From: Rhizobium sp. 9140
Lineage (GTDB): Bacteria > Pseudomonadota > Alphaproteobacteria > Rhizobiales > Rhizobiaceae
DNA: 64,000 nt
Assembly: GCF_900067135.1 (NCBI RefSeq)
Contig: NZ_FJUR01000001.1
Coordinates: 3,165,501 to 3,229,500, forward strand
Direction: 5' to 3'
The notes under the pieces are model-generated. The model searched no databases. It was not told the origin of the DNA and was given only the letters and a program-made list of their open reading frames with translations. A program made the position numbers and the translations under genes. Below are positions 19,619 through 57,377 of the stretch, piece by piece (the stretch's first letter is position 1; every line of letters begins with the position of its first letter).

Positions 19619-21331
19619 CTAGAACAGGAAATAGCGCTGCGCCATCGGCAGCACCGTCGCCGGCTCGCAGGTCAGCAGCTCTCCATCCGCGCGCACCTCG
19701 TAAGTCTCCGGATCCACCTCGATCACCGGCGTCAGGCTATTGTGGATCATCGAGGCCTTGCCGATACCGCCGCGCGTGTTCTTCACCGCCATCAGCGTTT
19801 TCGCCACGCCGAGCTTGGCCGCAAGGCCGGCGTCCAGCGACGCCTGCGATACGAAGGTTACGGAGGAGTTGGTCCGCGCCTTGCCGAAGGCGCCGAACAT
19901 CGGCCGGTAATGCACCGGCTGCGGTGTGGGAATGGAGGCGTTCGGATCGCCCATGGGGGCGGCCGCGATCATGCCGCCGAGCAGCACCATGTCCGGCTTC
20001 ACGCCGAAGAAGGCGGGGTTCCACAGCACGAGATCGGCCCGTTTGCCAACCTCGACCGAGCCGATCGCGTGGCTGAGGCCGTGGGCGATAGCCGGGTTGA
20101 TCGTGTATTTCGCGATGTAGCGCTTCACCCGCATATTGTCGTTGTCGCCGGTTTCGCTCGCCAGCCGGCCGCGCTGGCGCTTCATCTTGTCGGCCGTCTG
20201 CCACGTGCGGATCGCCACCTCGCCGACGCGGCCCATGGCCTGGCTGTCGGACGAGATGATCGAGAAAGCGCCGATATCGTGCAGGATATCCTCGGCCGCA
20301 ATCGTTTCCTTGCGGATACGGCTTTCGGCAAAGGCGATGTCCTCCGGGATCGACGGGGACAGGTGATGGCAGACCATCAGCATATCCAGATGTTCGGCCA
20401 GCGTGTTGATCGTGTAGGGCCGCGTCGGATTGGTCGAGGACGGGATGACGTTCGGCTGGCCGCAGATCTTGATAATGTCGGGCGCATGTCCGCCGCCCGC
20501 CCCTTCGGTGTGGAAGGCATGGATGGTGCGACCCTTCAGCGCCGCAATGGAATCCTCCACGAAGCCGCTCTCGTTCAGCGTGTCCGTGTGGATCATCACC
20601 TGCACATCGTATTCGTCGGCGACCGAGAGGCAGCAGTCGATGGCGGCCGGCGTCGTACCCCAGTCCTCGTGCAGCTTCAGCGATGTCGCGCCGCCGAGCA
20701 CCATTTCCACCAGCGCGCCGGGCAGCGAGGCATTGCCCTTGCCGGCAAAGGCGAGGTTCATCGGAAAGGCATCGGCCGCCTCGATCATCCGCGCCAGGTG
20801 CCACGGCCCGGGCGTGCAGGTGGTGGCGAGCGTACCATGCGCGGGGCCTGTGCCGCCGCCCAGCATGGTGGTGAGGCCGGACATCAGCGCCTCCTCGATC
20901 TGCTGCGGGCAGATGAAGTGGATATGGCTGTCCATGCCGCCGGCGGTGACGATCTTGCCTTCGGCCGCGATTGCCTCCGTGCCGGGGCCGACGATGATGT
21001 CCACATTCGGCTGCGTATCCGGATTTCCGGCCTTGCCGATGGCGACGATCAGCCCGTCCTTCAGCCCGATATCGGCCTTCACGATACCCCAATGGTCTAC
21101 GATCAGCGCGTTGGTGATGACGGTATCGACCGCGCCGTCCGCCCGCGTCACCTGGCTCTGCCCCATGCCGTCGCGGATGACCTTGCCGCCGCCGAACTTC
21201 ACCTCGTCGCCATAGGTGGTGAAATCCTTCTCCACCTCGATGAACAGCTCCGTATCCGCCAGCCGCACCCGGTCGCCCGTCGTCGGGCCGAACATATTGG
21301 CATAGGCGGCGCGGGACATCTTGTAGGACAT
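19619..21331 (-). CDS. ureC: Urease alpha subunit UreC (catalytic)
   Basis: 570 residues, the normal length. It hydrolyses urea to ammonia and carbamate at a dinickel site. Visible: DSHIHF (His136, His138), the bridging carbamylated Lys219 in [13 protein letters not shown], the [15 protein letters not shown] segment, and the flap MVCHHL with the catalytic His. The ATG is three bases after the vapC stop, so it is translated from the same transcript as the toxin gene. Confidence 0.98.
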
Positions 21332-25074: not shown

Positions 25075-25770
25075 TCAAACCGTGAGGTGCCTTCGGGCTT
25101 CCGGCGTGTCGAGCGTTTCGGCCGGGCCTTCATGCACAATCTCTCCGCGATCCATGATGTAGACATGGTCTGCAAGCTCGCGGCAGAAGTCAAGATATTG
25201 TTCCACAAGCAAAATCGCCATCCCCGTGGAATCACGCAAATACTGGATCGCCCGTCCGATATCCTTGATGATCGAGGGCTGGATGCCCTCCGTCGGCTCG
25301 TCGAGCACGAGGATCTTCGGACGTGTGACGAGCGCCCGGCCGATGGCAAGCTGCTGCTGCTGCCCGCCCGAAAGGTCGCCACCGCGCCGCCCGAGCATGG
25401 ATTTGAGAATGGGGAACAGCGCGAAGATCTCGTCCGGCACGAAGCGGTCCTTGCGGGCGACGGGGGCGTAGCCGGACTCAAGGTTCTCCTTGACGGTGAG
25501 AAGAGGAAACACCTCCCGCCCCTGCGGCACGAAACCGACGCCGAGGCGTGCGCGGTTATAGGGCGCCATGCCGTTCATGACGGTATCGTTGAAGGTCACC
25601 TTGCCGGCGCTCGTCGCATGCTGGCCGGTGACCGAGCGCAAAAGGCTGGTCTTGCCCACGCCGTTGCGGCCGAGCACGCAGGTGATCTTGCCCATCGGCG
25701 CCGTGATGGAGACGCCGCGCAGGGCCTGCGCCGCACCGTAATGAAGGTTGATATTGTCGACGGTCAGCAT
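25075..25770 (-). CDS. urtE: Urea ABC transporter ATP-binding protein UrtE
   Basis: 231 residues, LivF-like ATPase. Walker [13 protein letters not shown], signature [15 protein letters not shown], Walker [27 protein letters not shown] is typical of UrtE. It energises import of urea captured by UrtA through UrtBC. It is separated from urtD by about 208 bases that hold a repeat copy. Confidence 0.96.
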
Positions 25771-25829
25771 GAGGCACCTCGTTCGGTGGGCGGGGTCGAG
25801 GCATCGGAGGCTGAAGCGCTTGCGGGAAG

Positions 25830-25885
25830 GAAAGCCCTCTCTGCCCTGCCAGCCATCTGCCCCACAAGGGGGGAGAAGACCCTTG
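25830..25885 (+). repeat. Intergenic repeat, copy 3
   Basis: Within the 208-base gap between urtE and urtD. CCCTCTCTGCCCTGCCAG at 25835 followed by the CCCCACAAGGGGGGAG palindrome matches copies at 8464 and 8576. The remainder of the gap shows no gene. Confidence 0.72.
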
Positions 25886-25978
25886 GCTGGGCGTCCACAT
25901 CAAAGCGAGGATGGCGCTTGAGTCCATCGGAGGCGACGTGCTGAACCGCGAACATCGAGACATTGTAATGCATTGAAA

Positions 25979-26740
25979 TCACCGTCCCAGATAGTTTTCG
26001 ATGACTTTGGGATCGTTCGACACGAAGTCGATCGAGCCCTCCGCGAGAACCGAGCCCTCGGCAAGGCAGGTGACCTTGACGCCGAGGTCGCGGATGAAGC
26101 CCATGTCGTGCTCCACCACCACGACCGAGCGGGTCTTGGCGATTTCCTTGAGCAGGATCGCGGTCTCCGCGGTCTCTGCGTCCGTCATGCCGGCGACGGG
26201 CTCGTCCACCAGCAGCAGCTTCGGTTCCTGCGCCAGCAGCATGCCGATTTCCAGCCACTGCTTCTGCCCGTGCGACAGGCTTCCCGCGAGATGATCCTTC
26301 CGGGCCGTCATGCGCACGGTTTCGAGGATCTCCTCGATCCGCGCCTTGTCGGCTGGCGTCAGCGTGTAGAACAGCGTGGCGAAGACGCCGCGTTTGCGGT
26401 TCAGCGCCAGTTCGATATTGTCCCAGACGGTATGGCTCTCGAACACTGTCGGCTTCTGGAATTTCCGGCCGATGCCCAGCTGCGCGATATCCGCCTCGTC
26501 CTTTTTGGTCAGGTCCACCTGCCCGTCGAAATAGACTGTGCCGCTGTCGGGCCGCGTCTTGCCGGTGATGATGTCCATCATCGTTGTCTTGCCCGCGCCG
26601 TTCGGGCCGATGATCGCCCTGAGCTCGCCGGGCGCCACCACGAAGGACAGCGCATTCAGCGCCTTGAAGCCATCGAAGGAAACCGAGACGCCATCGAGAT
26701 AAAGGAGGCTGTTGGTGATCTTCTCGTCCATGGCGCTCAC
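25979..26740 (-). CDS. urtD: Urea ABC transporter ATP-binding protein UrtD
   Basis: 253 residues, LivG-like ATPase. Walker A GPNGAGKTTMMDIITGKTRP, signature LSHGQKQWLEIGMLL (the SHGQ variant typical of UrtD), Walker B LLLVDEPVAGMTD. Its start overlaps the urtC stop by four bases. Confidence 0.96.
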   Translation of the reverse strand: MSAMDEKITNSLLYLDGVSVSFDGFKALNALSFVVAPGELRAIIGPNGAGKTTMMDIITGKTRPDSGTVYFDGQVDLTKKDEADIAQLGIGRKFQKPTVFESHTVWDNIELALNRKRGVFATLFYTLTPADKARIEEILETVRMTARKDHLAGSLSHGQKQWLEIGMLLAQEPKLLLVDEPVAGMTDAETAETAILLKEIAKTRSVVVVEHDMGFIRDLGVKVTCLAEGSVLAEGSIDFVSNDPKVIENYLGR

Positions 26741-27915
26741 TCCGCGGCTTGAGGTTGAACGTCGACGGCGTCACGGGCGGCAACGGTGCGCCCCTTCTCG
26801 GCTTCGGCGGCGGCCTTGTAGTCCCGACGCGAGGCAAATCCCTGCTGGATGGTGCCGACGATGCCCTTCGGCAGGAAGAGCGTGGTGGCGACGAAAAGGG
26901 CGCCGAGCGCGAACAGCCAGAACTCCGGGAAGGCGGCGGTGAAGATGGACTTGCCGAAGTTGACCAGCACCGCCCCGATGATCGGCCCGATCAGCGTCCC
27001 CCGCCCGCCGACAGCCGTCCAGATGACGACCTCGATGGAGTTGGCGGGCGCGAACTCGCCCGGGTTGATGATGCCGACCTGCGGCACGTAGAGCGCGCCG
27101 GCAACGCCTGCGATCATGGCGGAAAAGGTGAAGATGAAGAGCTTCATGTTCTCGACGCGATAACCGAGAAAGCGCGTCCGGCTTTCCGCATCCCGCACCC
27201 CGACCAGCACCTTGCCGTATTTCGACTGCACGATGGCGGAGGAGAGGAGCAGAACGAGCGCGAGAACGATGCCGGTGATGGCGAACAGCGTGGCGCGCGT
27301 TTCCGGCGCCTGGATGTTGAAGCCGATGATGTCCTTGAAATCGGTCAGGCCGTTATTGCCGCCGAAGCCCATTTCGTTGCGGAAGAAGGCGAGCAGCAGC
27401 GCATAGGTCATCGCCTGCGTGATGATGGAGAGGTAGACGCCGGTGACGCGCGAGCGGAAGGCGAGCCAGCCGAAGACGAAGGCGAGCGCGCCCGGCACCA
27501 GCACCACCATCAGGGCCGCGAAGGGGAATGAATCGAAGCCGGTCCAGTACCAGGGCAGTTCCTTCCAGTTCAGGAAGACCATGAAGTCGGGCAGGATCGG
27601 ATTGGCATAGACGCCGCGCGCGCCGATCTGGCGCATCAGATACATGCCCATGGCATAGCCGCCGAGCGCGAAGAAGGCCCCGTGGCCGAGCGAGAGAATG
27701 CCGCAATAGCCCCAGACGAGATCGAGCGCGAGCGCGAGCAACGCGTAGCAGAGATACTTCCCGAACAGCGGCACGACATGGGACGGCACATGCAGCGGGT
27801 TGCCGGGATCGAGCAGCAGGTTGGAGGCGGGAACCGCAATGGCGATGAGGAGGATCAGTGCGGCGAGGGCCAGAACCTTTTTCTCGTGGGCGTGGATGAG
27901 CCGGGTCGTGAACAT
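26737..27915 (-). CDS. urtC: Urea ABC transporter permease UrtC
   Basis: 392 residues, LivM-like permease with about ten hydrophobic segments. Landmarks are DLVWGYCGILSLGHGAFFALGGYAMGMYLM near the N-terminus and the ATPase-contact region VLVGVRDAESRTRFLGYRVE. The start shares one base with the urtB stop (TAATG), so the two are coupled. Confidence 0.95.
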   Translation of the reverse strand: MFTTRLIHAHEKKVLALAALILLIAIAVPASNLLLDPGNPLHVPSHVVPLFGKYLCYALLALALDLVWGYCGILSLGHGAFFALGGYAMGMYLMRQIGARGVYANPILPDFMVFLNWKELPWYWTGFDSFPFAALMVVLVPGALAFVFGWLAFRSRVTGVYLSIITQAMTYALLLAFFRNEMGFGGNNGLTDFKDIIGFNIQAPETRATLFAITGIVLALVLLLSSAIVQSKYGKVLVGVRDAESRTRFLGYRVENMKLFIFTFSAMIAGVAGALYVPQVGIINPGEFAPANSIEVVIWTAVGGRGTLIGPIIGAVLVNFGKSIFTAAFPEFWLFALGALFVATTLFLPKGIVGTIQQGFASRRDYKAAAEAEKGRTVAARDAVDVQPQAAE

Positions 27916-29534
27916 TATTCGATCGACCTCCCCTTGAGGGCGAACAGGCCGCGCGGCCGCCGCTGGATGAACAGGATGATGAGGACGAGGATCAGGATCT
28001 TGCCGAGAACCGCGCCCGCATAGGGCTCGAGGAACTTGTTGGCGATCCCGAGCGTCATGGCGCCGACGAAGGTTCCCCAGAGATTGCCGACCCCGCCGAA
28101 GACCACGACCATGAAGCTGTCGATGATGTAGTTCTGCCCGAGATTGGGCGAGACGTTGTCGATCTGGCTCAACGCCACCCCGGCGATGCCGGCGATGCCG
28201 GAACCGAGACCGAAGGTCATCGCGTCCACCATCGGCGTGCGGATACCCATGGATGACGCCATGCGCCGGTTCTGCGTGACGGCGCGCATCTGCAGGCCGA
28301 GGCGCGATCGTTTAAGAAGCGTCAGCAGAGCCAGGAACACCGCCAGCGAGAAGACGATGATCCACATGCGGTTCCAGGTGATGGCGAGCCCGCCGAAGTC
28401 GAACGTTCCCGACATCCAGCTCGGATTGTCCACCTGCCGGTTGGTCGGCCCGAAAATGGTGCGGATGGTCTGCTGCAGGATCAGCGACAGGCCCCAGGTG
28501 GCAAGCAGCGTCTCCAGCGGCCGGCCATAGAGGAAGCGGATGATGCCGCGCTCGATGGCGACGCCGACGAGACCGGTAAAGAGAAAGGCGATCGGCACCG
28601 CGAAGGCGAGCGAGAAAGTGGAGAGACCGGGCGCGAACGAGGCGACTGTCTGCTGCACGACATAGGTCGTGTAGGCGCCGAGCATCACCATCTCGCCATG
28701 CGCCATATTGATGACGCCCATGACGCCGAAGGTGATGGCAAGGCCGATGGCGGCGAGCAGCAGGACCGAGCCGAGCGACAGTCCGTACCAGACGTTCTGC
28801 ACCACATCCCACACAGCAAGGCTGCTGGTGATGCCGTCGATGCGGCTCTGGATCACCGGCACGAGATCCGGCGGGGCCGTGGAAAGCGCTGCGGTGAGGA
28901 TGTTGAGCGCGCCGCGGTCGCCTCGCGCGGCGACGTTCTCGATCGCCGCCTTCTTGTCTTCGGCGCTCGCATCCGTCTTCAGGATCAGCACCGCCCTGGC
29001 AGATTCCATCGCCGCCTTGACCTCGGCATCGCCCTCCTTCGAGAGAGCCCCGTCGAGCAGCGCGAGATTGGCGGTATCGCCGCTCGCCAGCAGCGCCTGT
29101 GCGGCGGAAAGCCGAGCATTGCGGTCGGGGCTGAGCAGGGTCAGCTGGCTCATGGCGTCGCCAATGGCGCCGCGCAGCATATTGTTCAGCCGGATCTTCT
29201 GCAGGCTGGCCGCAGGCACGCCCTCGACAGGCGCCCCGGTCACCGGATCGGACACGACGTCGCCCTCGACGAGATAGACCGCGCCGCCCGTTTTCGGTGC
29301 AAACAGTTCGCCGGCGCTGAGCTTTTCGAGGATCTCGGGTACCTTCGGGTCGCCGGTCGCGGCAAGCTGCTTCACCGCCTCCACCTTCTGCGGAAACGCG
29401 GTCGCGCCCAGCCCGTCGATCAACGGCTTCAGCGCATCCTGCGCTTGCGCGCCACTTGCCGCGCCGGTCGTGAAGGCAAGGCCGAGCCCAAGGAGAAGAA
29501 GAACGATCCGAAGTGCGCGCGATGTCAGCTGCAT
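27915..29534 (-). CDS. urtB: Urea ABC transporter permease UrtB
   Basis: 539 residues. After a signal-like segment (about 8-30) comes a periplasmic region of about 230 residues with helical repeats (VEAVKQLAATGDPKVPEILE; RLSAAQALLASGDTANLALL), then a LivH-like permease domain (GVMGVINMAHGEMVMLGAYT; LYGRPLETLLATWGLSLILQ). The long N-terminal domain is normal for UrtB and sets it apart from LivH. ATG 29534 was chosen for the hydrophobic leader; the frame stays open upstream without coding signs. Confidence 0.94.
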   Translation of the reverse strand: MQLTSRALRIVLLLLGLGLAFTTGAASGAQAQDALKPLIDGLGATAFPQKVEAVKQLAATGDPKVPEILEKLSAGELFAPKTGGAVYLVEGDVVSDPVTGAPVEGVPAASLQKIRLNNMLRGAIGDAMSQLTLLSPDRNARLSAAQALLASGDTANLALLDGALSKEGDAEVKAAMESARAVLILKTDASAEDKKAAIENVAARGDRGALNILTAALSTAPPDLVPVIQSRIDGITSSLAVWDVVQNVWYGLSLGSVLLLAAIGLAITFGVMGVINMAHGEMVMLGAYTTYVVQQTVASFAPGLSTFSLAFAVPIAFLFTGLVGVAIERGIIRFLYGRPLETLLATWGLSLILQQTIRTIFGPTNRQVDNPSWMSGTFDFGGLAITWNRMWIIVFSLAVFLALLTLLKRSRLGLQMRAVTQNRRMASSMGIRTPMVDAMTFGLGSGIAGIAGVALSQIDNVSPNLGQNYIIDSFMVVVFGGVGNLWGTFVGAMTLGIANKFLEPYAGAVLGKILILVLIILFIQRRPRGLFALKGRSIE

Positions 29535-29746
29535 GTGTGTCAAAGCCCCTTCACGCGGCAGGACGGCGGTGTAACGCGCGCATCTGCCCAAGAATTCCGC
29601 AGGAACGACCTTTCGGTTGCGCTTTTGCGGGTACGACATTGCAGGAAAGCCCTCATCCGTCCGTGTCCGGCCTGATCCATGCATGTTCCGTGCCATGCCT
29701 GGAGTGTCCTGAACGCAACGCACGATCGCTTCCCCTGAGGAAGAGT

Positions 29747-29889: not shown

Positions 29890-31179
29890 TCAGGAACCCT
29901 TGCCGCCGCACTTGCCCGTTGCAACGTTGAAGTTGCCGCAGGACATCGGCTTGCGCCAATCGGAGATCAGGTCCTTCGAGTCCGGCAGGAAGTCCGACCA
30001 CTCGTCGCCGACGACCTGGGGGGTCTGCTGGACAATTTCGAACTGGCCGTCGCCCTGGATTTCGCCGATCAGCACGGGCTTGGTGATGTGGTGGTTCGGC
30101 ATGACGGTGGAGTAGCCGCCCGACAGGTTGGGAACCGAGGTGCCGATGATCGTGTCGAGAACGGCGTCCGTATCGGTCGTGCCGGCAGCCTCGACGGCCT
30201 TCACCCAGGCGGAGAAGCCGATATAGGCGGCTTCCATCGGATCGTTCGTCACGCGCTTGTCGTTCTTCGTATAGGCATGCCACTGCTTGATGAACTCGGC
30301 ATTGGCAGGCGCATCGACGGACTGGAAGTAGTTCCAGGCAGCAAGGTGACCGACGAGCGGCTTGGTGTCGAGACCGGCAAGCTCTTCTTCACCGACCGAG
30401 AAGGCGACGACCGGAATATCGGTGGCCTTGATGCCCTGGTTGCCGAGTTCCTTGTAGAAGGGAACGTTGGCATCGCCGTTGATGGTGGAGACGACGGCCG
30501 TCTTCTTGCCGGCCGAGCCGAATTCCTTGATCTTCGCAACTTCCGTCTGCCAGTCGGAGAAGCCGAACGGCGTGTAGTTGACGATGATGTCTTCCTTGGC
30601 CACGCCTTTGGCGATCAGGTAGGCTTCCAGGATCTTGTTGGTCGTGCGCGGATAGACGTAATCGGTGCCTTCGAGCACGAAGCGCTCGACGCCTTCGTTT
30701 GCGATCAGGTAATCGACAGCCGGGATGGCCTGCTGGTTCGGAGCGGCGCCCGTATAGAAGATGTTGCGCGAGGACTCTTCGCCCTCGTACTGGACCGGGT
30801 AGAAGAGAATGGAGTTCAGCTCTTCGAACACCGGCAGGACCGACTTGCGCGACGAGGACGTCCAGCAGCCGAACACGGCCGCGACCTTGTTGACGGAGAT
30901 CAGTTCGCGCGCCTTTTCGGCAAACAGCGGCCAGTCGGACGCGGGATCGACGACGACGGCCTCGAGCTTCTTGCCGAGAACGCCACCCTTCTTGTTCTGC
31001 TCCTCGATGAGCATCAGCATGGCGTCTTTCAGCGTCGTCTCGGAAATGGCCATCGTGCCGGACAGCGAGTGCAGAACGCCGACCTTGATGGTGTCGTCAG
31101 CCGCGTTGACGGCAGAAAATGCCGTGGTTGCCAGGGCGCAGGCCAGAAATGCGCTTAAGGTATGGGATTTGAATGACAT
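29890..31179 (-). CDS. urtA: Urea ABC transporter substrate-binding protein UrtA
   Basis: 429 residues, type I periplasmic binding protein. Signal peptide about 1-26 (MSFKSHTLSAFLACALATTA). UrtA landmarks: TIKVGVLHSLSGTMAISETT, AAVFGCWTSSSRKSVLPVFE, NSILFYPVQYEGEESSRNIF, and a Cys-rich end (MSCGNFNVATGKCGGKGS). First gene of the urt-ure run, divergent from the permease-kinase gene. Confidence 0.97.
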   Translation of the reverse strand: MSFKSHTLSAFLACALATTAFSAVNAADDTIKVGVLHSLSGTMAISETTLKDAMLMLIEEQNKKGGVLGKKLEAVVVDPASDWPLFAEKARELISVNKVAAVFGCWTSSSRKSVLPVFEELNSILFYPVQYEGEESSRNIFYTGAAPNQQAIPAVDYLIANEGVERFVLEGTDYVYPRTTNKILEAYLIAKGVAKEDIIVNYTPFGFSDWQTEVAKIKEFGSAGKKTAVVSTINGDANVPFYKELGNQGIKATDIPVVAFSVGEEELAGLDTKPLVGHLAAWNYFQSVDAPANAEFIKQWHAYTKNDKRVTNDPMEAAYIGFSAWVKAVEAAGTTDTDAVLDTIIGTSVPNLSGGYSTVMPNHHITKPVLIGEIQGDGQFEIVQQTPQVVGDEWSDFLPDSKDLISDWRKPMSCGNFNVATGKCGGKGS

Positions 31180-31257: not shown

Positions 31258-31286
31258 TGTGCAATGCACATACGTCAATTGACGTA
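31258..31286. promoter_or_regulatory. Adjacent palindromes in the urtA/kinase divergent promoter region
   Basis: TACGTCAATTGACGTA at 31271-31286 is a perfect 16-bp palindrome. TGTGCAATGCACA at 31258-31270 abuts it and is palindromic around its centre. They lie 78-107 bases upstream of urtA. This is a plausible operator for the LuxR-type regulator encoded at 34845 or another dimeric regulator. Confidence 0.55.
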
Positions 31287-31452
31287 GGTCGGAACCGCAG
31301 ATGCCGCGTGCGTTCCCGCCGGAAACATGCGGTCTGTCTGGACAGGGGGACGCATTGTCTTCAAGATCGACCGAACCCCGATCCGTCGCGACCTTCCTCC
31401 CGCGATCTCGCTTGCCGACAAGGATGTTGCTCCGCACCATGAAAACCTCGAA

Positions 31453-34400
31453 ATGACAGCCCGGCAGCGCATCATTCCGGTCCGGCGCGAGTATAATCGC
31501 TGGGTCGCGGACCAGACGCTGGAGGATTATGCCCTGCGGTTCACGGCCAAAAGCGCCCGGCGCTTTTCGGCCAGCCGCATTTCCCAGACCGCCATCGGCG
31601 CGATTTCCTTTCTCGCGCTGGAGGCGATCGGCGGCACGATCACCCTTTCCTACGGCACGACGAACGCATTCTACGCCATCCTCGCCGCCGCCATCGCCAT
31701 GCTCCTTATCGGCATGCCGATCAGTCGCTACGCCATCCGCCACGGCGTGGATATCGACCTTCTCACGCGCGGCGCGAGCTTCGGCTATATCGGCTCCACC
31801 ATCACCTCGCTGATCTATGCCAGCTTCACCTTCATGCTGTTCGCCATCGAGGCATCGATCATGACGGGCGCGCTGAACCTCGCCTTCGGCATCCCGCTCT
31901 GGATCGGCTACATCATCAGCGCCGTCGTGGTCATTCCGCTCGTCGTCTACGGTGTCCAGCTCATTTCGCGCTTCCAGCTGATCACCCAGCCCTTCTGGAT
32001 CGTGCTCAACATCCTGCCGTTCGTCTTCATCGCCTATTCGGACTGGGAGAAGTTCGATCTCTGGCGTGCCTTCGCCGGCATCGCCCATTCGAATGCGCAG
32101 GTCGGCGGCGCGACGCCGTTCGATCTGATCGAGTTCGGCGCCGCCTCCGCGGTTATCCTGGCGCTGATGCCGCAAATCGGCGAACAGGTGGACTTTCTGC
32201 GTTTCCTGCCGCCGGAAGGCATGAAGAAGTGGCGGCATCGCCTCGCCGTCTTTCTGGCGGGACCCGGATGGGTGGTGGTCGGCGTGCCGAAGCTGCTCGC
32301 GGGCTCGTTCCTCGCCGTGCTCACGCTCTCCACCGGCGTGCCTGCCGGCGAGGCTGCGGACCCGTCGCGTATGTATCTTGCAGCCTTCGGCTACATGATC
32401 CCCAACGACACGGCCGCCCTCGTGCTCATGGCCGCCTTCGTGGTCGTCTCGCAACTGAAGATCAACGTGATGAATGCCTATGCGGGCTCGCTCGCCTGGT
32501 CGAATTTCTTCTCCCGCCTGACGCACAGCCATCCCGGCCGCGTCGTCTGGCTGGTGTTCAACGTCGCCATTGCCCTCCTCCTCATGGAGTTCGGCATCTA
32601 CAAGCTGCTCGAAGCCACCCTCGGCGTGTTCTCCATCATCGCCATGTCCTGGCTCTGCACGCTCTCGGCCGATCTCTTCATCAACAAGCCGCTCGGCCTC
32701 TCGCCTGATGGCATCGAGTTCAAGCGCGCCCATCTCTACGACATCAACCCGGTCGGCCTCGGCGCCATGTTCGCGTCTGCCGGCGTGGCCCTTGCCGCTC
32801 ATTTCGGCCTTTTCGGCACCGTCATGGCATCGCTGTCGACTTACGTCACGCTCATTGCCTTCCTCGTCTCCCCCGCGCTCGCCTATGCCACGCGCGGCCG
32901 CTACTATCTCGCGCGCAAGCCGCGCGCGCACTGGAAGCTGCGCGCCACCATCACCTGTTCCATTTGCCAGCATCCATTCGAGCCCGAAGACATGGCCTAT
33001 TGCCCGGCCTATGCCGCGCCGATCTGTTCGCTCTGCTGCTCGCTCGACAGCCGCTGCCACGATATCTGCAAGCCGCATGCGCGAGTGAATGCACAGACCG
33101 CCGCCGTCGCCCGCAGGCTACTGCCCGAGCGCATCGTCGCGGCACTCGCCAGTCGCCTCGGCCGCTATGCCACCGCCGTCGTCATCGCCGTCTCCGCCAT
33201 CGGCGCCATCCTCGCCATGATCGCCTACCAGACCGGTTCCGCCTCGCCCATTGCCGCCGAGGTCATCAACCGCACCATCGGCATCGTCTTCTTCGTGTTC
33301 ACCGTCGTCACCGGCGTGGTCTGCTGGTTCTATGTGCTGGCCCATGACAGCCGGCTCGTGGCAGAGGAGGAATCGTCCCGCCAGAACACCTTGCTTCTCA
33401 AGGAGATCGCCGCCCACAAGAAGACGGACGCCGCGCTGCAATATGCAAAGGAAACCGCCGAGGCCGCCAACCGCGCCAAGAGCCGCTATGTCGTCGGCCT
33501 CAGCCACGAGCTGCGCACCCCGCTCAACGCCGTCATGGGCTATGCCCAGATCCTCGAGCGTGACGAGACCATTCCCGCCCCCCGGCAAGCGGCCATCCGC
33601 GTCATCAAGCGGAGCGCCGACCATCTCTCGGGGCTCATCGACGGCCTGCTCGACATCTCCCGCATCGAGGCCGGTCGGCTGCAGGTTTTCTCCAACGAGA
33701 TCAATATTCAGGACTTTCTCGACCAGATCGTCGATATGTTCCGTCCCCAGGCTCAGGCCAAGGGCCTCGCCTTCGAGCATGTAAGGGCGCCCGGCCTGCC
33801 GACGCATGTCCGCACAGACGAAAAGCGCCTGCGACAAATCCTCGTCAATCTTCTTTCCAACGCCGTCAAATTTACCGATCGCGGCGTCGTGCGCTTCGAA
33901 GTGGCTTATCGCAGTCAGGTTGCGACGTTTACCGTGACCGACACCGGTCGCGGCATCTCCGAGGCCGACCGCCCCCGCATTTTCGAGCCGTTCCAGCGCG
34001 GCGAGGCCGAAACCATCCGCCCCATGCCGGGCCTTGGCCTTGGCCTCACGATCACGCGGCTTCTGACCGAAACGCTGGGCGGCGAAATTCAGGTCACGAG
34101 CGAGCGCGACAGGGGCTCGACCTTCCGCGTGCGGCTGATGCTGTCGGCTGTTGCCCGCCCTGCGGCCGTTCCCACACCCCAGCGAGACGTGACCGGCTAT
34201 GCCGGCCCGCGCCGCACCATCGTCGTCGTGGACGACAACGAGGATCACCGGGAGCTGATGCGCGAGGTATTGATCCCGCTCGACTTCGTTGTTCTTACAG
34301 CCATCGGCGGCGCCGAGTGCTTGACGCTCATCGAGGGCATCGAGCCCGATCTCTTTCTGGTCGATATCTCCATGCCCGGCATGAGCGGCTGGCAGCTGGT

Positions 34401-34848
34401 CTCGCGCCTGCGCGAGCACGGGCAGACCGCGCCCATCATCATGCTGTCGGCCAACATAGGGGACGGCAGTCTGGCCAGCCAGCACACTGGCCACAACGAT
34501 ACGCTCGCCAAGCCTTTCGTCATCCGGCAACTCAAGGACAAGATTGCCGTCAATCTCGGCCTTGAGTGGACGCATGACGACTCCCCACAGCCGGCCGAGC
34601 CCATAGCGCCCCGGCCTATACTCGTCCCTGACGCATCGCATATCGAAGAACTGATCCGGCTCGGCGAAATCGGCTATATCAGGGGCATCGAGGCAAAACT
34701 CGCCGAGCTTGCGCGCGACGCCGCCCACCAGCCCTTTGCCGAGGCGGCCCGCGCCTACGTGCAGGCCTTCGACATGGCCGGCTACGCCACCTTTCTCGAA
34801 ACAGCAGCCGTCCGAAGCGACCCGTTGCCGGAAGGAGACCACCGGTGA
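31453..34848 (+). CDS. NCS1-permease-like hybrid sensor histidine kinase
   Basis: 1131 residues from ATG 31453 (an ATG at 31327 would add 42 residues of less protein-like sequence). Order of domains: a purine/cytosine-permease (NCS1)-like region of about a dozen membrane segments (roughly 20-480; begins RQRIIPVRREYNRWVADQTL, FLALEAIGGTITLSYG); a Cys-rich motif at about 502-541 with spacing C-x2-C-x11-C-x7-C-x2-CC-x5-C-x3-C; two more membrane segments; a coiled linker; HisKA with His685 (LSHELRTPLN); HATPase (ILVNLLSNAVKFTD, GRGISEADRPRIF, PGLGLGLTITR); and a receiver with Asp971 (DLFLVDISMPGMSG). The tail of about 80 residues is unassigned. It is translationally coupled to the response regulator, and divergent from urea uptake, suggesting it senses a nitrogen compound. 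Confidence 0.88.
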   Translation: MTARQRIIPVRREYNRWVADQTLEDYALRFTAKSARRFSASRISQTAIGAISFLALEAIGGTITLSYGTTNAFYAILAAAIAMLLIGMPISRYAIRHGVDIDLLTRGASFGYIGSTITSLIYASFTFMLFAIEASIMTGALNLAFGIPLWIGYIISAVVVIPLVVYGVQLISRFQLITQPFWIVLNILPFVFIAYSDWEKFDLWRAFAGIAHSNAQVGGATPFDLIEFGAASAVILALMPQIGEQVDFLRFLPPEGMKKWRHRLAVFLAGPGWVVVGVPKLLAGSFLAVLTLSTGVPAGEAADPSRMYLAAFGYMIPNDTAALVLMAAFVVVSQLKINVMNAYAGSLAWSNFFSRLTHSHPGRVVWLVFNVAIALLLMEFGIYKLLEATLGVFSIIAMSWLCTLSADLFINKPLGLSPDGIEFKRAHLYDINPVGLGAMFASAGVALAAHFGLFGTVMASLSTYVTLIAFLVSPALAYATRGRYYLARKPRAHWKLRATITCSICQHPFEPEDMAYCPAYAAPICSLCCSLDSRCHDICKPHARVNAQTAAVARRLLPERIVAALASRLGRYATAVVIAVSAIGAILAMIAYQTGSASPIAAEVINRTIGIVFFVFTVVTGVVCWFYVLAHDSRLVAEEESSRQNTLLLKEIAAHKKTDAALQYAKETAEAANRAKSRYVVGLSHELRTPLNAVMGYAQILERDETIPAPRQAAIRVIKRSADHLSGLIDGLLDISRIEAGRLQVFSNEINIQDFLDQIVDMFRPQAQAKGLAFEHVRAPGLPTHVRTDEKRLRQILVNLLSNAVKFTDRGVVRFEVAYRSQVATFTVTDTGRGISEADRPRIFEPFQRGEAETIRPMPGLGLGLTITRLLTETLGGEIQVTSERDRGSTFRVRLMLSAVARPAAVPTPQRDVTGYAGPRRTIVVVDDNEDHRELMREVLIPLDFVVLTAIGGAECLTLIEGIEPDLFLVDISMPGMSGWQLVSRLREHGQTAPIIMLSANIGDGSLASQHTGHNDTLAKPFVIRQLKDKIAVNLGLEWTHDDSPQPAEPIAPRPILVPDASHIEELIRLGEIGYIRGIEAKLAELARDAAHQPFAEAARAYVQAFDMAGYATFLETAAVRSDPLPEGDHR

Positions 34849-35759
34849 GCGACGCACCCCGCCCCCGCGATATCGTGTTGATCGTCGATGACAGCCCGGA
34901 AACCCTCGGCTTCCTCACCGACGCGCTGGAGCAATCCGGCTTCTCCGTGCTGATCGCCACCTCCGGCCCGGCTGCCCTGAAGGTCGTCGCCAGGATCACG
35001 CCCGACATTGTGCTGATGGACGCCGTCATGCCGGAGATGGACGGATTCGATACCTGCCGGCGGCTGAAGGCGCTTGCCGACATCGCCCCCGTTCCCGTGA
35101 TTTTCATGACCGGGTTGACGGAGACGGAGCACATCGTCCACGCGCTCGAATCCGGCGGCGTGGATTACCTCTCCAAACCCATCAATATCGACGAGCTGCG
35201 CGCCCGCATCCGCGTCCACCTCGGCAACGCCCGCTCCGCCCAGAGCGCCCGCGTCGCGCTGGATGCGGCCGGTCGGCATCTGCTCGCGGTGCGCGGCAAT
35301 GGCGCGCTGCACTGGTCGACGCCGCAGGCGACCCGACTGGTCGATACCGCCATCGGCTCGGAGGACGGGCTTGATGCCGTCTCCGACCAGATCGCCCTTT
35401 TCCTGCGCGACCGCACCAGTGGCAAGGACGCCCCCCTCGTCATCGAGAGCGCCGGTGTCCCCGTCCTGCAACTCGCCTTTCTCGGCACCGTCGGCAGCGA
35501 CGAATACCTGTTCCGCCTCACCGCCGTGAGCCAGACCACCGACGAGGAAGCCTTGCGCCGGCATTTCTCCCTGACGATGCGCGAGGCGGAAGTCCTCGTC
35601 TGGATCGCCAAGGGCAAATCCAACCGCGATATCGCCGAAATCCTCGGCCTCTCCGCCCGCACCGTCAACAAACACCTCGAGCAGATCTACGTGAAGCTGG
35701 GCGTCGAGAACCGGGCTTCGGCCGCGGTGAAGGCGACGAATGCGCTGAGCCAGAGTTGA
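34845..35759 (+). CDS. Response regulator, receiver plus LuxR-type HTH
   Basis: 304 residues. An N-terminal receiver (IVLIVDDSPETLGFLTDALE, phospho-acceptor Asp59 in DIVLMDAVMPEMDG, Lys in VDYLSKPINIDEL), a middle region of about 100 residues with no recognised domain, and a C-terminal LuxR/NarL HTH (LTMREAEVLVWIAKGKSNRD, LSARTVNKHLEQIYVKLGVE). GTG start overlaps the kinase stop (GTGA) with AAGGAGA upstream. It is the cognate output of the permease-kinase and candidate binder of the palindrome upstream of urtA. Confidence 0.9.
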   Translation: MSDAPRPRDIVLIVDDSPETLGFLTDALEQSGFSVLIATSGPAALKVVARITPDIVLMDAVMPEMDGFDTCRRLKALADIAPVPVIFMTGLTETEHIVHALESGGVDYLSKPINIDELRARIRVHLGNARSAQSARVALDAAGRHLLAVRGNGALHWSTPQATRLVDTAIGSEDGLDAVSDQIALFLRDRTSGKDAPLVIESAGVPVLQLAFLGTVGSDEYLFRLTAVSQTTDEEALRRHFSLTMREAEVLVWIAKGKSNRDIAEILGLSARTVNKHLEQIYVKLGVENRASAAVKATNALSQS

Positions 35760-35851: not shown

Positions 35852-36970
35852 TTACATCTGCGGGAAGTAGCTGTACTTGCCGTCCGGGCCTTTTTTCCAC
35901 TCGTACATGACGTAGCCGGGAAGCTTCGGGTCGCCCTTTTCGTCGAACGACATATCGCCGAGAACGGTCTTGAACGGACCCTTTTCCTTCATCGCGGTGG
36001 CAACGGTTTCAGGATCGATCGAGCCGGCGGCCTTCGCAGCTTCTGCGATCGTCTGCAGAGCGGCATAGGAGTAGAGCGTGTAGGCTTCCGGGTTGAAGCC
36101 GGCGGTCTTGAACTTCTCGACCAGTTCCTTGTTCTCCGGGCGGAGCGTCGGATCGGGGCCGAAGGTGTTGAGCGTGCCTTCAACGGCGTCGCCGGCGATC
36201 GAGGCCAGTTCGTTGGAGACGATGCCGTCACCCGAAACGAGCGTTGCCTTGAGGCCCTGGTCTGCCGACTGGCGGATGATCAGGCCGGCTTCGGTGTGGA
36301 GGCCACCCCAGTAGATCACGGAAACGCCGGCTTCCTTCATCTTGGCGATGAGGGCCGAGAAGTCCTTGTCGCCGGTGTTGACGCCTTCGTACATGACTTC
36401 CGTCATGCCGGCAGCGTTCATCGCCTTCTTGGTTTCGTCGGCAAGGCCCTGGCCGTAAGGCGTCTTGTCATGAATGACGGCGACCTTGGCGTCCTTGAAC
36501 TTTTCAGCAAGATACGCGCCGGCAACGCCGCCCTGCTGGTCGTCACGGCCGCAGGTGCGGAACGTGTTCCAGAGGCCGCGCTCGGTAAAGACGGGGTTGG
36601 TTGCAGCCGGCGTGATTTCGAGAATGCCGTTTTCTGCGTACACTTCCGACGCAGGGATCGAAACGCCCGAGTTGAAGTGACCAATGACGTATTTCACGCC
36701 GTCGGCAACGAACTTGTTGGCAACCGAAATGCCCTGCTTCGGGTCGGACACGTCGTCGCCGAGAACGATCTTGATCTGCTCGCCGTTGATGCCGCCGGCG
36801 GCGTTGATGTCAGCGGCTGCCTGCTCGGCACCCTTCTGGAGCTGCGCGCCGAATGCGGCGTTCGGGCCGGTCAGCGGACCGGCAACAGCGATCGTGATGT
36901 CCGCCCAGGCCTGGCCGCTGAACGCGACCATCGCCGTCAGCGCAACAGCCGACAAAAGTGACTTCTTCAT
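35852..36970 (-). CDS. livJ: Branched-chain amino-acid ABC transporter substrate-binding protein
   Basis: 372 residues. Signal peptide [20 protein letters not shown] then AWA. Type I binding fold: [83 protein letters not shown] class, leucine/isoleucine/valine likely. Lies last in the liv cluster, 112 bases after DUF6867, followed by a terminator. Start set at 36970 by the signal peptide; the frame is open far upstream but non-coding. Confidence 0.92.
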
Positions 36971-37082
36971 CCTGTAACTCCCAATTTTCAAGCGGGTCTG
37001 TTGCCATAGCCAACGCAGTTCCCACTCTGACTGCGCCGGTGTTCGTTGTGGCCGAGGCGATGCACCTGCGGCTGTTCCCTTA

Positions 37083-37427
37083 TTATTTATTCTTCCACGA
37101 GAACGGTGATGCCTTCTCGTAAAGCCAGTAGTAGCTGCTGACCATTTGGCGTGTCCGGTAGAAACGGAAGCCAGCGGTAGAAAACAGCAAAAGAATGATC
37201 GTGTCCACGACGTAGTAGTGCAGGCTGAACATCGTGCCGTTGAACAGTGCGTGATGCACGAAACGGATGCCGAGACCGAGCAACAGCGTGTAGACCACGA
37301 CGGTCGTATAGGTCTGCCAGCCGTCCGCGACGCTCTTGCCCGTGCGCCAGGCGCTCCAGCCGCCGAGCACACAGGTGATCAGCATGAACTGAAGGATCGA
37401 AGGCTCTTCGTGAAGAATGCCCTGCAT
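37083..37427 (-). CDS. DUF6867 small membrane protein
   Basis: 114 residues with two or three hydrophobic segments (about 10-26, 42-62, 66-86: [48 protein letters not shown]). This family is regularly found inside alphaproteobacterial liv operons. Function unknown. Located between livF and the binding-protein gene in the same direction. Confidence 0.8.
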
Positions 37428-37466
37428 GTCAGAAACTCCCGATGGAAGGGATGAGGGAAGCGGCGC

Positions 37467-38189
37467 TCAATGGTGCCCGCCTTCGAGATAGGCGGCGCGC
37501 ACTTCCGGATTGGCCAGCAATTCCCGGCCGCCGCCGCTCATCGTCACCTGTCCGTTGACCATCACGTAGCCGCGATGCGACAGCTTGAGCGCGGCGAACG
37601 CGTTCTGCTCGACGAGGAACACGGTCAGCCCCTCTTCCTCGTTCAGCTTCTTGATTGCCGCGAAAATGCCCTTGACGATCAGCGGCGCGAGACCGAGCGA
37701 CGGCTCGTCGAGAAGCAGGAGCTTGGGGCGGGCCATCAGCGCGCGGCCGATGGACAGCATCTGCTGCTCGCCGCCCGAAAGCGTGCCGCCGCGCTGCGAC
37801 TGGCGCTCCTTCAGCCGCGGAAACAGCGTGAAGATCTTCTCGATATCCTCGTTGAAATATTTGAGGTTGTCGAGGCTCGCGCCCATCTGAAGGTTCTCAT
37901 AGACCGTCATGCGCGGAAAGATGCGCCGGCCCTCGGGCGACTGGGCGATGCGCAGCCGGGCGATCTCGTGGGTCGGCATGCGGGTGATGTCCTGACCATC
38001 GAAGATGACGGAGCCGGTTCGCGCCTGCGGACTGCCGCAGATGGTCATCATCAGCGTCGACTTGCCGGCGCCGTTCGCACCGATCATGCAGACGATCTCG
38101 CCGGGTTCCACAACGACATCGACGCCGCCGAGCGCCCGGATATTGCCGTAATAGGTCTCGACGTTCTTGACGTGAAGCAGCGGGCTCAT
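37467..38189 (-). CDS. livF: Branched-chain amino-acid ABC transporter ATPase LivF
   Basis: 240 residues. Walker A GANGAGKSTLMMTICG, signature LSGGEQQMLSIGRALMARP, Walker B LLLLDEPSLGLAPLIV, all LivF-typical. Start overlaps the livG stop by four bases. Works with LivG on the LivHM channel. Confidence 0.95.
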   Translation of the reverse strand: MSPLLHVKNVETYYGNIRALGGVDVVVEPGEIVCMIGANGAGKSTLMMTICGSPQARTGSVIFDGQDITRMPTHEIARLRIAQSPEGRRIFPRMTVYENLQMGASLDNLKYFNEDIEKIFTLFPRLKERQSQRGGTLSGGEQQMLSIGRALMARPKLLLLDEPSLGLAPLIVKGIFAAIKKLNEEEGLTVFLVEQNAFAALKLSHRGYVMVNGQVTMSGGGRELLANPEVRAAYLEGGHH

Positions 38190-39094
38190 GGGCGCTCTCC
38201 CGTGCTGCCGGCACCATGACCGACCGTTGCCGCAACCTCTTCCACTTCCGCGATCACCTCGTCGACCTCATCATCCTCGACGCCGAGATAGGCCGCAATG
38301 ACCTTCGGGTCGTTCTGTACGAACTGCGGATTGCCGTCCGAGATCTTCTGTCCGTATTCCAGCACGACGACGTGATCGGAGATTTCCATGACCACCGACA
38401 TATCGTGCTCGATCAGCAGGATCGACGTGCCGGTGTCGGTGCGGATATCGCGCAGCAGCGTGTTGAGCGCCAGCGACTCGCGCGGGTTGAGACCCGCTGC
38501 GGGCTCGTCCAGGCACAGAAGCTCCGGCTGCGTGCACATGGCGCGGGCGATTTCCAGCCGGCGCTGGGCACCATAGGGAAGATCGCCGGCCGGATCGTCG
38601 GCCCGGTCGGTCAGCGATGCCTTGTCGAGCCAGTATTTTGCAAGCTCGATGCTGGCCAGCGACGCCTTCTTGTAGGCCGGGAAGCCGAAGAGGCCGAGAA
38701 TGGTGTAGCCGGATGCCCGCATCAGCGCATTGTGCTGGGCGACCAGCAGGTTTTCCAGCACCGTCAGACCCGAGAACAGGCGAATGTTCTGGAAGGTACG
38801 GGCGACCTTCGCCCGCTTGGTGATCTCGAAGTCCGGCAGGCGCTCCAGCAGGAACTCCTTGCCGCCCTTCTGCCGCATCGTGATCATGCCCATGGTCGGC
38901 TTGTAGAAGCCGGTGATGCAGTTGAACACGGTGGTCTTGCCGGCCCCGTTCGGGCCGATGAGGGCGGTGATCTCGCCGCGCGTGGCTTCGAACGAGAAGT
39001 CGTTGATGGCCATCAGACCGCCGAAGCGCATGGAGAGATGTTCGACCTTGAGGATTGGATCCTTGGACATTGTCGTCGCCGTTCCCGTAACCAT
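38186..39094 (-). CDS. livG: Branched-chain amino-acid ABC transporter ATPase LivG
   Basis: 302 residues. Walker A GPNGAGKTTVFNCITGFYKP, signature LPYGAQRRLEIARAM, Walker B LLCLDEPAAGLNP. Carries an acidic C-terminal extension (VEDDEVDEVIAEVEEVAATV) beyond the usual end. ATG 39094 shares a base with the livM stop; an internal ATG at 39070 is also possible. Confidence 0.94.
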   Translation of the reverse strand: MVTGTATTMSKDPILKVEHLSMRFGGLMAINDFSFEATRGEITALIGPNGAGKTTVFNCITGFYKPTMGMITMRQKGGKEFLLERLPDFEITKRAKVARTFQNIRLFSGLTVLENLLVAQHNALMRASGYTILGLFGFPAYKKASLASIELAKYWLDKASLTDRADDPAGDLPYGAQRRLEIARAMCTQPELLCLDEPAAGLNPRESLALNTLLRDIRTDTGTSILLIEHDMSVVMEISDHVVVLEYGQKISDGNPQFVQNDPKVIAAYLGVEDDEVDEVIAEVEEVAATVGHGAGSTGERP

Positions 39095-54874: not shown

Positions 54875-56041
54875 ATGGCACAGATGCAGAGCGACCAGTT
54901 CTTTTCCACACTCCCCGTCTTCACGGCGTTCGAGGGCGTGGCGGACGCGGAGAACTATCGCCCGCTACCCATCGACTGGTGGATCGCCAGCGCCGATATC
55001 GTCGATTCCACCGGCGCCATCGACGCCGGTCGGTACAAGGCCGTTAACATGGCCGGCGCCAGCGTCATCTCGGCGGTGCTCAACGCGGTCGGTCATTTCG
55101 ACCTTCCCTTCGTCTTCGGCGGCGATGGCGCGCTCGTGGCGCTTCCCCCCTCGGCGCTGGTCGCGGCCACATCGGCGCTGGCCTCCGTTCAACTCTATGC
55201 GCGCGAAGAGCTCGATCTCGACCTGCGCGCCGCCCTCGTCCCGGTCTCCGACATCCGCATGGCTGGGCTCGATGTGCGCGTGGCACGCTTCCAGGTCAGC
55301 CCGGACGTCTCCTATGCGATGTTTGCCGGCGGCGGCGGTGCATGGGCGGAGACGGAGATGAAGGCCGGACGCTATCTCGTCGCGCCGGCGCCGGCGGGTG
55401 CCCGCCCCGACCTCACCGGCCTCTCCTGTCGCTGGAACCCCATCGCCTCCCGCCACGGCGCGATCGTCTCGATCATTGCGGTGCCCTGCCCCGGCAAGGA
55501 GGCCGGACCGTTTGCGACGCTGGTTTCCGATATCGTCGCGCTGGCCGCGGGCGAGGAGCGAGAGGGCCATCCGGTCCCGGCGGAAGGCCCGACGCTCGGC
55601 CTCTCCCGCGAAGGTCTGGAAACGGAGGTGCGCACGGTCGGAAAACCTCGCCGCCTGCGTCAGCGCGGCCGCATCCTTGTGGAAGCGGCACTGACCTATG
55701 GCTTGGCAAAGCTTGGAATGACGCTCGGCCGCTTCGATCCGAAGATCTACCGCCAGGACGTCGCCACCAATTCGGACTTTCGCAAGTTCGACGACGGGCT
55801 GAAGATGACCATCGACATCGAGGCGACCCGCCTCGTCAGCCTGGAAGCACGGCTGGAACGCGCAGCGTCCGAAGGCGTCTGCCGGTACGGCCTGCACCGG
55901 CAGGACGAGGCGCTGATGACCTGCATCGTGCCGACCGCACTCAGCCGCGACCACATGCACTTCATCGACGGCGCCAATGGCGGCTATGCAATGGCAGCCA
56001 GCCACCTAAAGGCACCCATGCCGGCCGCACCCGCGGCCTGA
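54875..56041 (+). CDS. DUF3095 protein (nucleotidyl-cyclase-like)
   Basis: 388 residues. The N-terminal part (WWIASADIVDSTGAIDAGRY, KAVNMAGASVISAVLN, LPFVFGGDGALVALP) parallels the metal and substrate strands of class III cyclases (D-I-x-x-S-T and F-G-G-D-G-A). The C-terminal part (FRKFDDGLKMTIDIEATRLV, RYGLHRQDEALMTCIVPTAL) is family-specific. Whether it makes a cyclic nucleotide is unknown. No clear ribosome site. Stops five bases before the convergent sugar dehydrogenase stop. Confidence 0.82.
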   Translation: MAQMQSDQFFSTLPVFTAFEGVADAENYRPLPIDWWIASADIVDSTGAIDAGRYKAVNMAGASVISAVLNAVGHFDLPFVFGGDGALVALPPSALVAATSALASVQLYAREELDLDLRAALVPVSDIRMAGLDVRVARFQVSPDVSYAMFAGGGGAWAETEMKAGRYLVAPAPAGARPDLTGLSCRWNPIASRHGAIVSIIAVPCPGKEAGPFATLVSDIVALAAGEEREGHPVPAEGPTLGLSREGLETEVRTVGKPRRLRQRGRILVEAALTYGLAKLGMTLGRFDPKIYRQDVATNSDFRKFDDGLKMTIDIEATRLVSLEARLERAASEGVCRYGLHRQDEALMTCIVPTALSRDHMHFIDGANGGYAMAASHLKAPMPAAPAA

Positions 56042-56045
56042 CGCC

Positions 56046-57377
56046 TCAGGCCTTTACGATCAATCCACCTTGAATACCGCGGCGGGCAAAAACGTTGCGC
56101 GTGTCGATGACCAGCGGCGCCTGCTGCGCGATCAGCGCATAATCGACATCGTCGTGATCGGTCGCAACCAGCACGGCATCGAAACGGCCGAGTTCGCTCA
56201 GCGGCACCGAGCGCCGGCCCTTCAACGACAGATATTCGCGCGTTCTCGGAATCTCGTCCACATGCGGATCATGGAAGGATGCGCTGCCGCCACGCTCCTC
56301 GATCAGCTCGATCAGTTTCAGCGACGGGCTTTCCCGGATATCCGGCACGTTCTTCTTGTAGGCAAGCCCGATGATCAGCACGCGCGACCGGCTCAGAGCT
56401 TTACCCAGGTGAATGTCAAGCGCTTCGGCAAGCCGCCCGACAATATGCTTCGGCATAGCCGAATTGATCTCGCCCGCAAGCTCGATGAAGCGGGTCGGCA
56501 TGTCGTACTCGCGGGATTTCCAGGTGAGATAGAACGGATCGATCGGGATGCAGTGCCCGCCGAGACCGGGGCCGGGATAGAACGGCATGTAGCCGAACGG
56601 CTTGGTCTTCGCCGCGTCGATCACCTCCCAGATATCGATGCCCATCGCCTCGAACACCGTCTTCAGCTCGTTCACGAGCGCGATATTGACCGCGCGAAAA
56701 ATGTTCTCCGTCAGCTTCACCGCCTCGGCTGTGGCTGTCGTGGAGACAGGCACGACGCGCTCCACCACGGCCGAATAGAACGCCTCCATCGCCTGCGCTG
56801 CCGCATCGCCGTCGCCAGCGACGATCTTCGGAATGCTGGTGGTCGAGAAATCGCGGTTGCCAGGGTCCTCGCGCTCGGGCGAGAAGCCGAGGAAGACCTC
56901 CCCCCCGATATCGAGCCCGGTGGCAGCCAGGATTGGCCGCACGACATCCGTCGTCGTGCCGGGATAGGTGGTGGATTCCAGCACTACGAGCTGTCCCGGC
57001 CGCAGCCGCAGCGCGATCTCCTGGCAGGTTTTCACGATATAGGTGAGGTCTGGATCGCGATGTCGCGTCAGCGGTGTCGGCACGCAGATGACGATGACGT
57101 CACAGGCGGCAAGGCCATCGAAATCGACCGTCGCGGAAAACCTGCCTGCATCCCGCTCGACCGAGAGAACATCGTCGCCGACCGCCTCGATATAGGACCG
57201 ACCCGCCTCGATGGCGACGATCTTGCCGGGGTCGATATCGAAGCCGGTGACAGTGAAGCCCTTGCGCGCGATGGCGATGGCAAGCGGCAGTCCGACATAG
57301 CCAAGGCCGATGACGCCCGCATGCGCCGTGCGATCGGCGATCCGCGACAGGAGAACCGCGTGGGAGGACGTGCTCAT
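56046..57377 (-). CDS. Nucleotide-sugar dehydrogenase (UDP-GlcNAc/UDP-glucose 6-dehydrogenase type)
   Basis: 443 residues. NAD-binding GVIGLGYVGLPLAIAIARKG, then PTPLTRHRDPDLTYI (typical of the WbpA/UDP-N-acetylglucosamine 6-dehydrogenase subgroup), VVLESTTYPGTT, SPEREDPGN, and the catalytic Cys in GGHCIPIDPFYLTWK. It oxidises C6 of a UDP-sugar to a uronic acid for polysaccharide or O-antigen synthesis. No other sugar gene adjoins it. ATG 57377 has AAGG upstream; upstream extension of the frame is spurious. Confidence 0.88.
   Translation of the reverse strand: MSTSSHAVLLSRIADRTAHAGVIGLGYVGLPLAIAIARKGFTVTGFDIDPGKIVAIEAGRSYIEAVGDDVLSVERDAGRFSATVDFDGLAACDVIVICVPTPLTRHRDPDLTYIVKTCQEIALRLRPGQLVVLESTTYPGTTTDVVRPILAATGLDIGGEVFLGFSPEREDPGNRDFSTTSIPKIVAGDGDAAAQAMEAFYSAVVERVVPVSTTATAEAVKLTENIFRAVNIALVNELKTVFEAMGIDIWEVIDAAKTKPFGYMPFYPGPGLGGHCIPIDPFYLTWKSREYDMPTRFIELAGEINSAMPKHIVGRLAEALDIHLGKALSRSRVLIIGLAYKKNVPDIRESPSLKLIELIEERGGSASFHDPHVDEIPRTREYLSLKGRRSVPLSELGRFDAVLVATDHDDVDYALIAQQAPLVIDTRNVFARRGIQGGLIVKA

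Follow-up and report, generated by a model that had tools for sequence, protein, structure and literature searches.

What does a histidine kinase sense when it carries a permease at its N-terminus and lies beside genes for urea uptake? The question was raised by a stretch of 64,000 nucleotides from Rhizobium sp. 9140 (assembly GCF_900067135.1, contig NZ_FJUR01000001.1, positions 3,165,501 to 3,229,500 of the forward strand; hereafter the window), in which a hybrid sensor kinase gene (31453–34848, + strand) is divergent from urtA, encoding the binding protein of a urea ABC transporter (29890–31179, − strand). An initial annotation, made from the letters of the window, had linked the kinase to urea uptake by its position and proposed a nucleobase, hydantoin or allantoin as its signal. 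The analysis presented here supported the link and pointed to another signal: we estimate a probability of about two in three that the kinase is a transporter-derived receptor for urea and/or short-chain amides (formamide, acetamide), controlling urea/amide uptake. The architecture, protein family, gene linkage and predicted operator behind this proposal were established by sequence comparison.

The open reading frame of the kinase opens at 31327, whereas the start of its homologues lies close to the ATG at 31453; residues are numbered here from the full frame (31327–34848, + strand, 1173 aa). Profile comparison and hydropathy placed an NCS1-type permease domain at residues 85–514 (31579–32868), with approximately 12 hydrophobic clusters, followed by an eight-Cys module (residues 544–581, 32956–33069) and, according to hydropathy, two further transmembrane (TM) helices ahead of the kinase part (residues 615–671, 33169–33339). 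The remaining domains gave Pfam matches in the order initially annotated, namely HisKA (718–783, 33478–33675), HATPase_c (830–939, 33814–34143) and a receiver (Response_reg, 965–1073, 34219–34545) with the motif LVDISMP at 1011–1017, as expected of a hybrid histidine kinase. The phospho-acceptor H727 was present in 51/51 homologues, a set of sensors kept at <85% mutual identity. The kinase gene overlaps by 4 bp with that of a response regulator of 304 aa (34845–35759, + strand), which consists of Response_reg (11–123) and a LuxR/NarL-type helix-turn-helix (HTH) domain (GerE/LuxR, 242–297).

Family models did not reveal the origin of the permease domain: Pfam returned no NCS1 match for the N-terminus of the window kinase or of any of the 51 homologues, NCBIfam did not assign the window kinase to NCS1, and a PDB sequence search with the permease domain gave no match. 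Comparison of profiles with hhalign did indicate NCS1: the two clearest PF02133 proteins matched the sensor profile at 75.6% (E 2.4e-5, 218 columns), a set of six NCS1-type proteins at 98.3% (E 1.9e-14, 426 columns), and a set with Mhp1 added at 99.2% (E 1.4e-19, 427 columns). Two of the six proteins (L126 and L195) had originally been found with the sensor itself, so that the wider sets lack full independence. Unrelated carriers used as controls reached 0.2% (SSF), 0.1% (UrtB) and 0.7% (UrtC). Of four distant stand-alone proteins that were scanned, L126 and L182 passed the PF02133 cut-off and the other two fell below it; the L182 permease matched the sensor profile at 164 bits. As judged from these profiles, the sensor N-terminus belongs to NCS1 by remote homology, which covers the 12-TM core and stays short of the Pfam model itself. 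The family named in the initial annotation was therefore retained, and an SLC5 (SSF) carrier was not indicated (hhalign 0.2%, no SSF Pfam match).

The ligand pocket was compared with that of Mhp1, whose residue roles we take to be S312 in the Na2 site and W117 and W220 as the ring sandwich, along with Q121 and N318. In all 51 sensors S312 aligned to K378, Q121 to E175, N318 to N383 and W220 to L280, a Leu, and W117 was replaced by Phe (38 sensors) or Leu (13). The alignment register in TM6 is uncertain by approximately one residue, and the TM6 stretch of the window kinase (267–285) is without any Trp. The Na2-site Ser/Thr and the ring-sandwich Trp of Mhp1 were thus both missing from the sensors, and because of this loss the domain is better described as NCS1-derived than as a typical nucleobase symporter. 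The Lys at the Na2 site and the lack of the Trp also argue against a flat aromatic ligand, including nucleobases. A sensor reporting nucleobase, hydantoin or allantoin uptake, as first proposed, would fit the NCS1 homology, the labels 'allantoin permease' or 'cytosine permease' carried by stand-alone relatives, and a dihydropyrimidinase gene (TIGR02033, 606 bits; 5815–7269) lying approximately 24 kb from the kinase, close to the ~20 kb initially given for pyrimidine genes. In addition to the substitutions at W220 and W117, its partner genes (urt, urease, fmd for formamidase/amide ABC transport, and amidase) speak against it, as do the missing operator copy near the pyrimidine genes of the window and the urease genes that adjoin several of the so-called allantoin/cytosine permeases. 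We therefore consider this signal very improbable.

The linkage to urea and amide genes was seen well beyond the window. Counting the genome of the window itself and taking E <1e-100 as a kinase-type match, the kinase was found in 7/7 genomes of the genus, 20/289 of the class (one more had a weak match) and 52/398 sampled Pseudomonadota genomes (ten more had weak, partial or NCS1-like matches). The class and phylum surveys, plus one genus member, yielded 73 loci outside the window, and in 67 of these, urea/amide uptake or hydrolysis genes lay within the fetched stretch: urtA in 16, an fmd-type binding protein in 42, ureC alone in seven, and formamidase with AmiS/UreI in two. The fmd-type binding protein, which passes the UrtA model and is approximately 36–43% identical to the window UrtA, was divergent from the kinase in 42/42 loci having it, with 39–669 bp between the matches (the reference formamidase matched NF045496 at 768 bits). 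The pairing with a LuxR-type regulator, likewise proposed at first, was found downstream on the same strand in 71/73 loci. One of the two loci without it (L176) had a separate receiver-kinase and an OmpR-type regulator, as did Paracoccus TOH; kinases of this receiver-less variant (L176 4001–10956; L177; L283 6593–13390) adjoin formamidase, an FmdB-like zinc ribbon and AmiS/UreI.

Among 80 close relatives (80–98% identity), nearly all from Rhizobiaceae/Rhizobiales with one metagenome-assembled genome titled Arenimonas, urtA was upstream in 77 and the regulator was present in all 80; the genome of the window is close to those of Rhizobium sp. NFR03 and Ferranicluibacter rubi, with 98% identity over the kinase N-terminus. 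In a tree made by a quick method and containing several long branches, the urt label changed at least six times and the fmd label at least four times on starred branches, and these partner swaps stayed within urea/amide genes. For Ectopseudomonas, PMC13296017 lists, as annotation only, a cluster in which urtABCDE-fmdA is joined by a hybrid kinase and a LuxR regulator. We also observed a formamidase (CN-hydrolase)-urtEDCBA-kinase module on a conjugative Klebsiella IncF plasmid (L281 2909–12381), the one record read from a genus to which 342 of the 532 plasmid records with a sensor-permease match belong.

Stand-alone permeases related to the sensor domain were found in similar surroundings. Six of them were 40–44% identical to the sensor permease domain, and seven formed one separate group in the tree (99*). 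Urea/amide genes were close by in 11 of the 16 stand-alone loci read. On four Acinetobacter plasmids the permease gene has ureEFGJDABC downstream, and in two Klebsiella records it follows ureG; the latter K. pneumoniae protein (L287 5971–7578; L317 6971–8578), annotated as a 'cytosine permease', belongs to the permease family of the sensor and, as far as sequence and gene order can tell, is probably a urea permease. Elsewhere the permease adjoins FmdB-formamidase (Moraxella), lies near a formamidase (Tsukamurella) or ahead of an aliphatic amidase (Arthrobacter U41), or is accompanied by kinase, regulator, formamidase and amidase (Methylovirgula); in G915 the kinase is divergent from permease-formamidase-amidase. 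The permease of Acinetobacter baumannii L309 is divergent from a kinase, with no urease/amidase match in the stretch read, and urea/amide genes were absent from four loci according to annotation and queries (L285, L289) or queries (L315, L316). Genes for a CN-hydrolase, a Peripla_BP_5 protein and an AmiR-like protein come after that of L182, a more distant permease. Leaving L182 out, 61 permease positions were identical across all sensors and the six stand-alone permeases, including E175, L280, Q283, E286, Q287, D289, K378, N380, N383 and Y385 of the pocket region.

A candidate for the control element was found between urtA and the kinase gene, where a perfect palindrome, TACGTCAATTGACGTA (31271–31286), begins at a distance of 92 bp from the urtA ATG, its other end lying 167 bp ahead of the kinase ATG. 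This predicted operator of the response regulator was discovered by k-mer counting in divergent intergenic regions, and its 7-2-7 inverted-repeat layout (TAC..GTA) resembles what we take to be the arrangement of NarL sites. The form TACGYN6RCGTA was present in 62/74 divergent intergenic regions (on average 0.04 and at most 1 after shuffling; 0 or 1 with other spacings), comprising 32/43 fmd regions, which are diverse, and 30/31 urt regions with the window included, all of the window's family except L173, which has no palindrome. Since the motif was discovered on these same 74 regions, further tests weigh more. In 58 loci where the binding-protein gene and the kinase are apart, the palindrome was upstream of the transporter gene only in 49, of the kinase only in three, of both in none and of neither in six. 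It occurred in 0/15 urtA-type promoters from 13 genomes that belong to the same order and lack the kinase, nor was it seen in two more such promoters from genomes unscreened for the kinase. Among seven additional kinase loci, taken from plasmids and other genomes, it lay next to the kinase in four (the Klebsiella plasmid, A. baumannii, Methylovirgula and G915) and was lacking in three (L283, L284 and L319). The copy at 31271–31286 is the only one in the window, and across the 5.4-Mb genome a single instance of the perfect form was counted. By comparison, a conserved predicted operator that tracks with the regulator precedes the uptake genes.

Several observations weigh against the proposed urea/amide receptor and its operator. 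Of the 49 sites that lay upstream of the transporter gene only, 47 came from the window's family or close relatives, and the nine separated loci outside the family divided into two transporter-only, three kinase-only, none with both and four with neither, because of which our confidence was lowered slightly. The positive urt regions were likewise all of the window's family, so that support for the site beyond this family comes from the fmd regions. The palindrome was absent from seven ure-type loci, three fmdA/amiS loci and 12 of the 74 divergent regions, and with two mismatches allowed it was not in excess genome-wide (69 vs. 227 in the reversed control). Loci L116–118, from one genus, and L121 had sufficient flank and no urea/amide gene nearby; further misses among the 73 were at contig ends (L208, which begins an fmd-type gene, and L211). 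In addition, the pocket assignments depend on alignment, and an AlphaFold2 model of the permease, made with 40 rows of close relatives, was poor (pLDDT 46.8).

A further caution comes from CbrA, where the transporter domain is reported to be non-essential for signal perception (PMC9100948). By this precedent the permease could be only an anchor or low-flux carrier, with the kinase reading a cytosolic nitrogen-status cue (ammonium, pH or a PII-type signal) to control urea/amide uptake. The range of partner genes is compatible with such a cue, as urea and amides have ammonia as their common product. The 61 invariant permease positions, pocket region included, are nevertheless more than an anchor should need, and the linkage is specific to urea/amide genes; we consider a nitrogen-status sensor unlikely.

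The eight-Cys module offers another possible input. Its pattern, C-x2-C-x11-C-x7-C-x2-CC-x5-C-x3-C, proved to be exactly as initially written, with identical spacing in 51/51 homologues, and was found only in these kinases (57 places, 52/396 genomes searched). Sequence relatives in the PDB were not convincing, with three matches at E 1.9–2.9. Compared with treble-clef/two-zinc fingers of the RING/FYVE/LIM type (CxxC knuckle, beta hairpin, CxxC at the helix start, eight ligands), the module is tentatively predicted to be treble-clef-like and could perhaps hold two metal sites; the metal-type module of the initial annotation was weakly supported. In the six stand-alone permeases the tail is homologous and carries between one and five of the eight Cys, at least three missing in each; C571, C577 and C581 were absent from all six. 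This invariance in the sensors, the restriction of the pattern and the incomplete set in the stand-alone proteins would suit a sensor of metal (e.g. Ni or Zn for urease/formamidase) or of thiol redox, to which the permease is secondary. The module does, however, also occur beside amide transporters in the absence of urease, and a conserved permease pocket would stay unexplained, making such a sensor rather improbable in our view. As a separate observation, the kinases of L178–L181 have an insertion between permease and Cys module, adjoin urease genes and are without the palindrome.

For the urea/amide receptor that we favour, the following course of signalling may be envisaged. The NCS1-type 12-TM domain would bind urea or an amide in a pocket common to its sister stand-alone proteins, themselves putative urea/amide permeases, and the resulting conformational change would travel via the cytosolic eight-Cys finger and the two extra TM helices to the kinase. 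From the domains present, H727 would hand its phosphate to the internal receiver, which would pass it to the LuxR-type regulator; this regulator would bind the 16-bp NarL-like palindrome, located by comparison, before the uptake genes, here urtA as the predicted target promoter, and presumably raise uptake when substrate is present.

The genes around the sensor agreed with the divergent urtABCDE-ure arrangement initially annotated. UrtA matched TIGR03407 at 549 bits, and UrtC, UrtD and UrtE, encoded in urtB-urtC-urtD-urtE (25075–29723, − strand), were above the NCBIfam cut-offs, as was the urease alpha subunit UreC (19619–21331, − strand), part of a urease cluster. The only match in an Rfam scan of the window was 5_ureB_sRNA (85 bits), antisense inside ureC (20890–21179, + strand), which may only mirror conserved coding sequence. 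A second branched-chain-type ABC operon with a LivJ-like binding protein and LivF-/LivG-like ATPases lies just downstream of the regulator (35852–39094, − strand) and is present there in most of the 80 close-relative loci. Further away, the dihydropyrimidinase gene and an allantoate/carbamoyl amidohydrolase-type gene (3866–7269, + strand) form, with ABC permeases at 8966–10698, a pyrimidine/hydantoin degradation cluster without palindrome. A DUF3095 protein and a guanylate-cyclase-domain protein (57386–58975) are encoded at 54875–58975 (+ strand).

On balance, and arguing from sequences, we lean towards a widespread and so far unrecognised class of urea/amide transceptors. In it, an NCS1 lineage turned urea/short-amide permeases (including the 'cytosine/allantoin permeases' of Klebsiella and Acinetobacter urease loci) would have been fused to a kinase via its own cytosolic tail, with a four-Cys finger upgraded to eight as signal coupler and a dedicated 7-2-7 operator before urt, fmd or permease genes. 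This would explain, in a form open to experiment, how numerous bacteria may perceive urea and small amides (the kinase was present in 52/398 Pseudomonadota genomes). It also predicts a bacterial urea/amide permease family whose members currently carry nucleobase or allantoin labels, and provides a natural series, from permeases with up to five Cys to kinases with eight, for studying the change from transporter to receptor.

Fusions of transporters with kinases are known from the SLC5/STAC group (PMC9100948) and from Amt proteins (PMC5764959). No description of an NCS1 member with a Cys finger was found in the open-licence literature, which does not imply absence in print; PMC11698098, in the part available, treats an allantoin NCS1 permease and mentions no kinase. 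The SLC5/STAC kinases (CbrA, CrbS, RpuS) likewise join a LeuT-fold-type carrier to a (hybrid) histidine kinase, and LuxR-family partner regulators are reported for them in Sinorhizobium fredii (PMC9100948). The sensor described here differs in its carrier, which is NCS1 rather than SLC5, in the Cys finger between carrier and kinase, and in its linkage to urea/amide genes. CbrA has a Lys at the Na2 site too, K196, which PMC13022988 reads as proton coupling; in our sensor K378, by alignment, replaces the Na2-site Ser itself. Ks-Amt5, a nitrogen-compound transporter repurposed by fusion to a histidine kinase (PMC5764959), comes from another transporter family and is not known to have a Cys module. 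With the NCS1 transporters (Mhp1, PF02133) the sensor has in common a profile over 427 columns and TM8 Asn residues, whereas it departs from Mhp1 by Lys for the Na2 Ser, Glu for Q121, the lost ring-sandwich Trp and a similarity below Pfam detection. It shares identical pocket-region residues and a homologous tail with the stand-alone permeases, which are without the kinase and without C571, C577 and C581. Its regulator has the LuxR HTH in common with NarL/FixJ-type regulators, but the predicted site is distinct in sequence and linked to urea/amide uptake.

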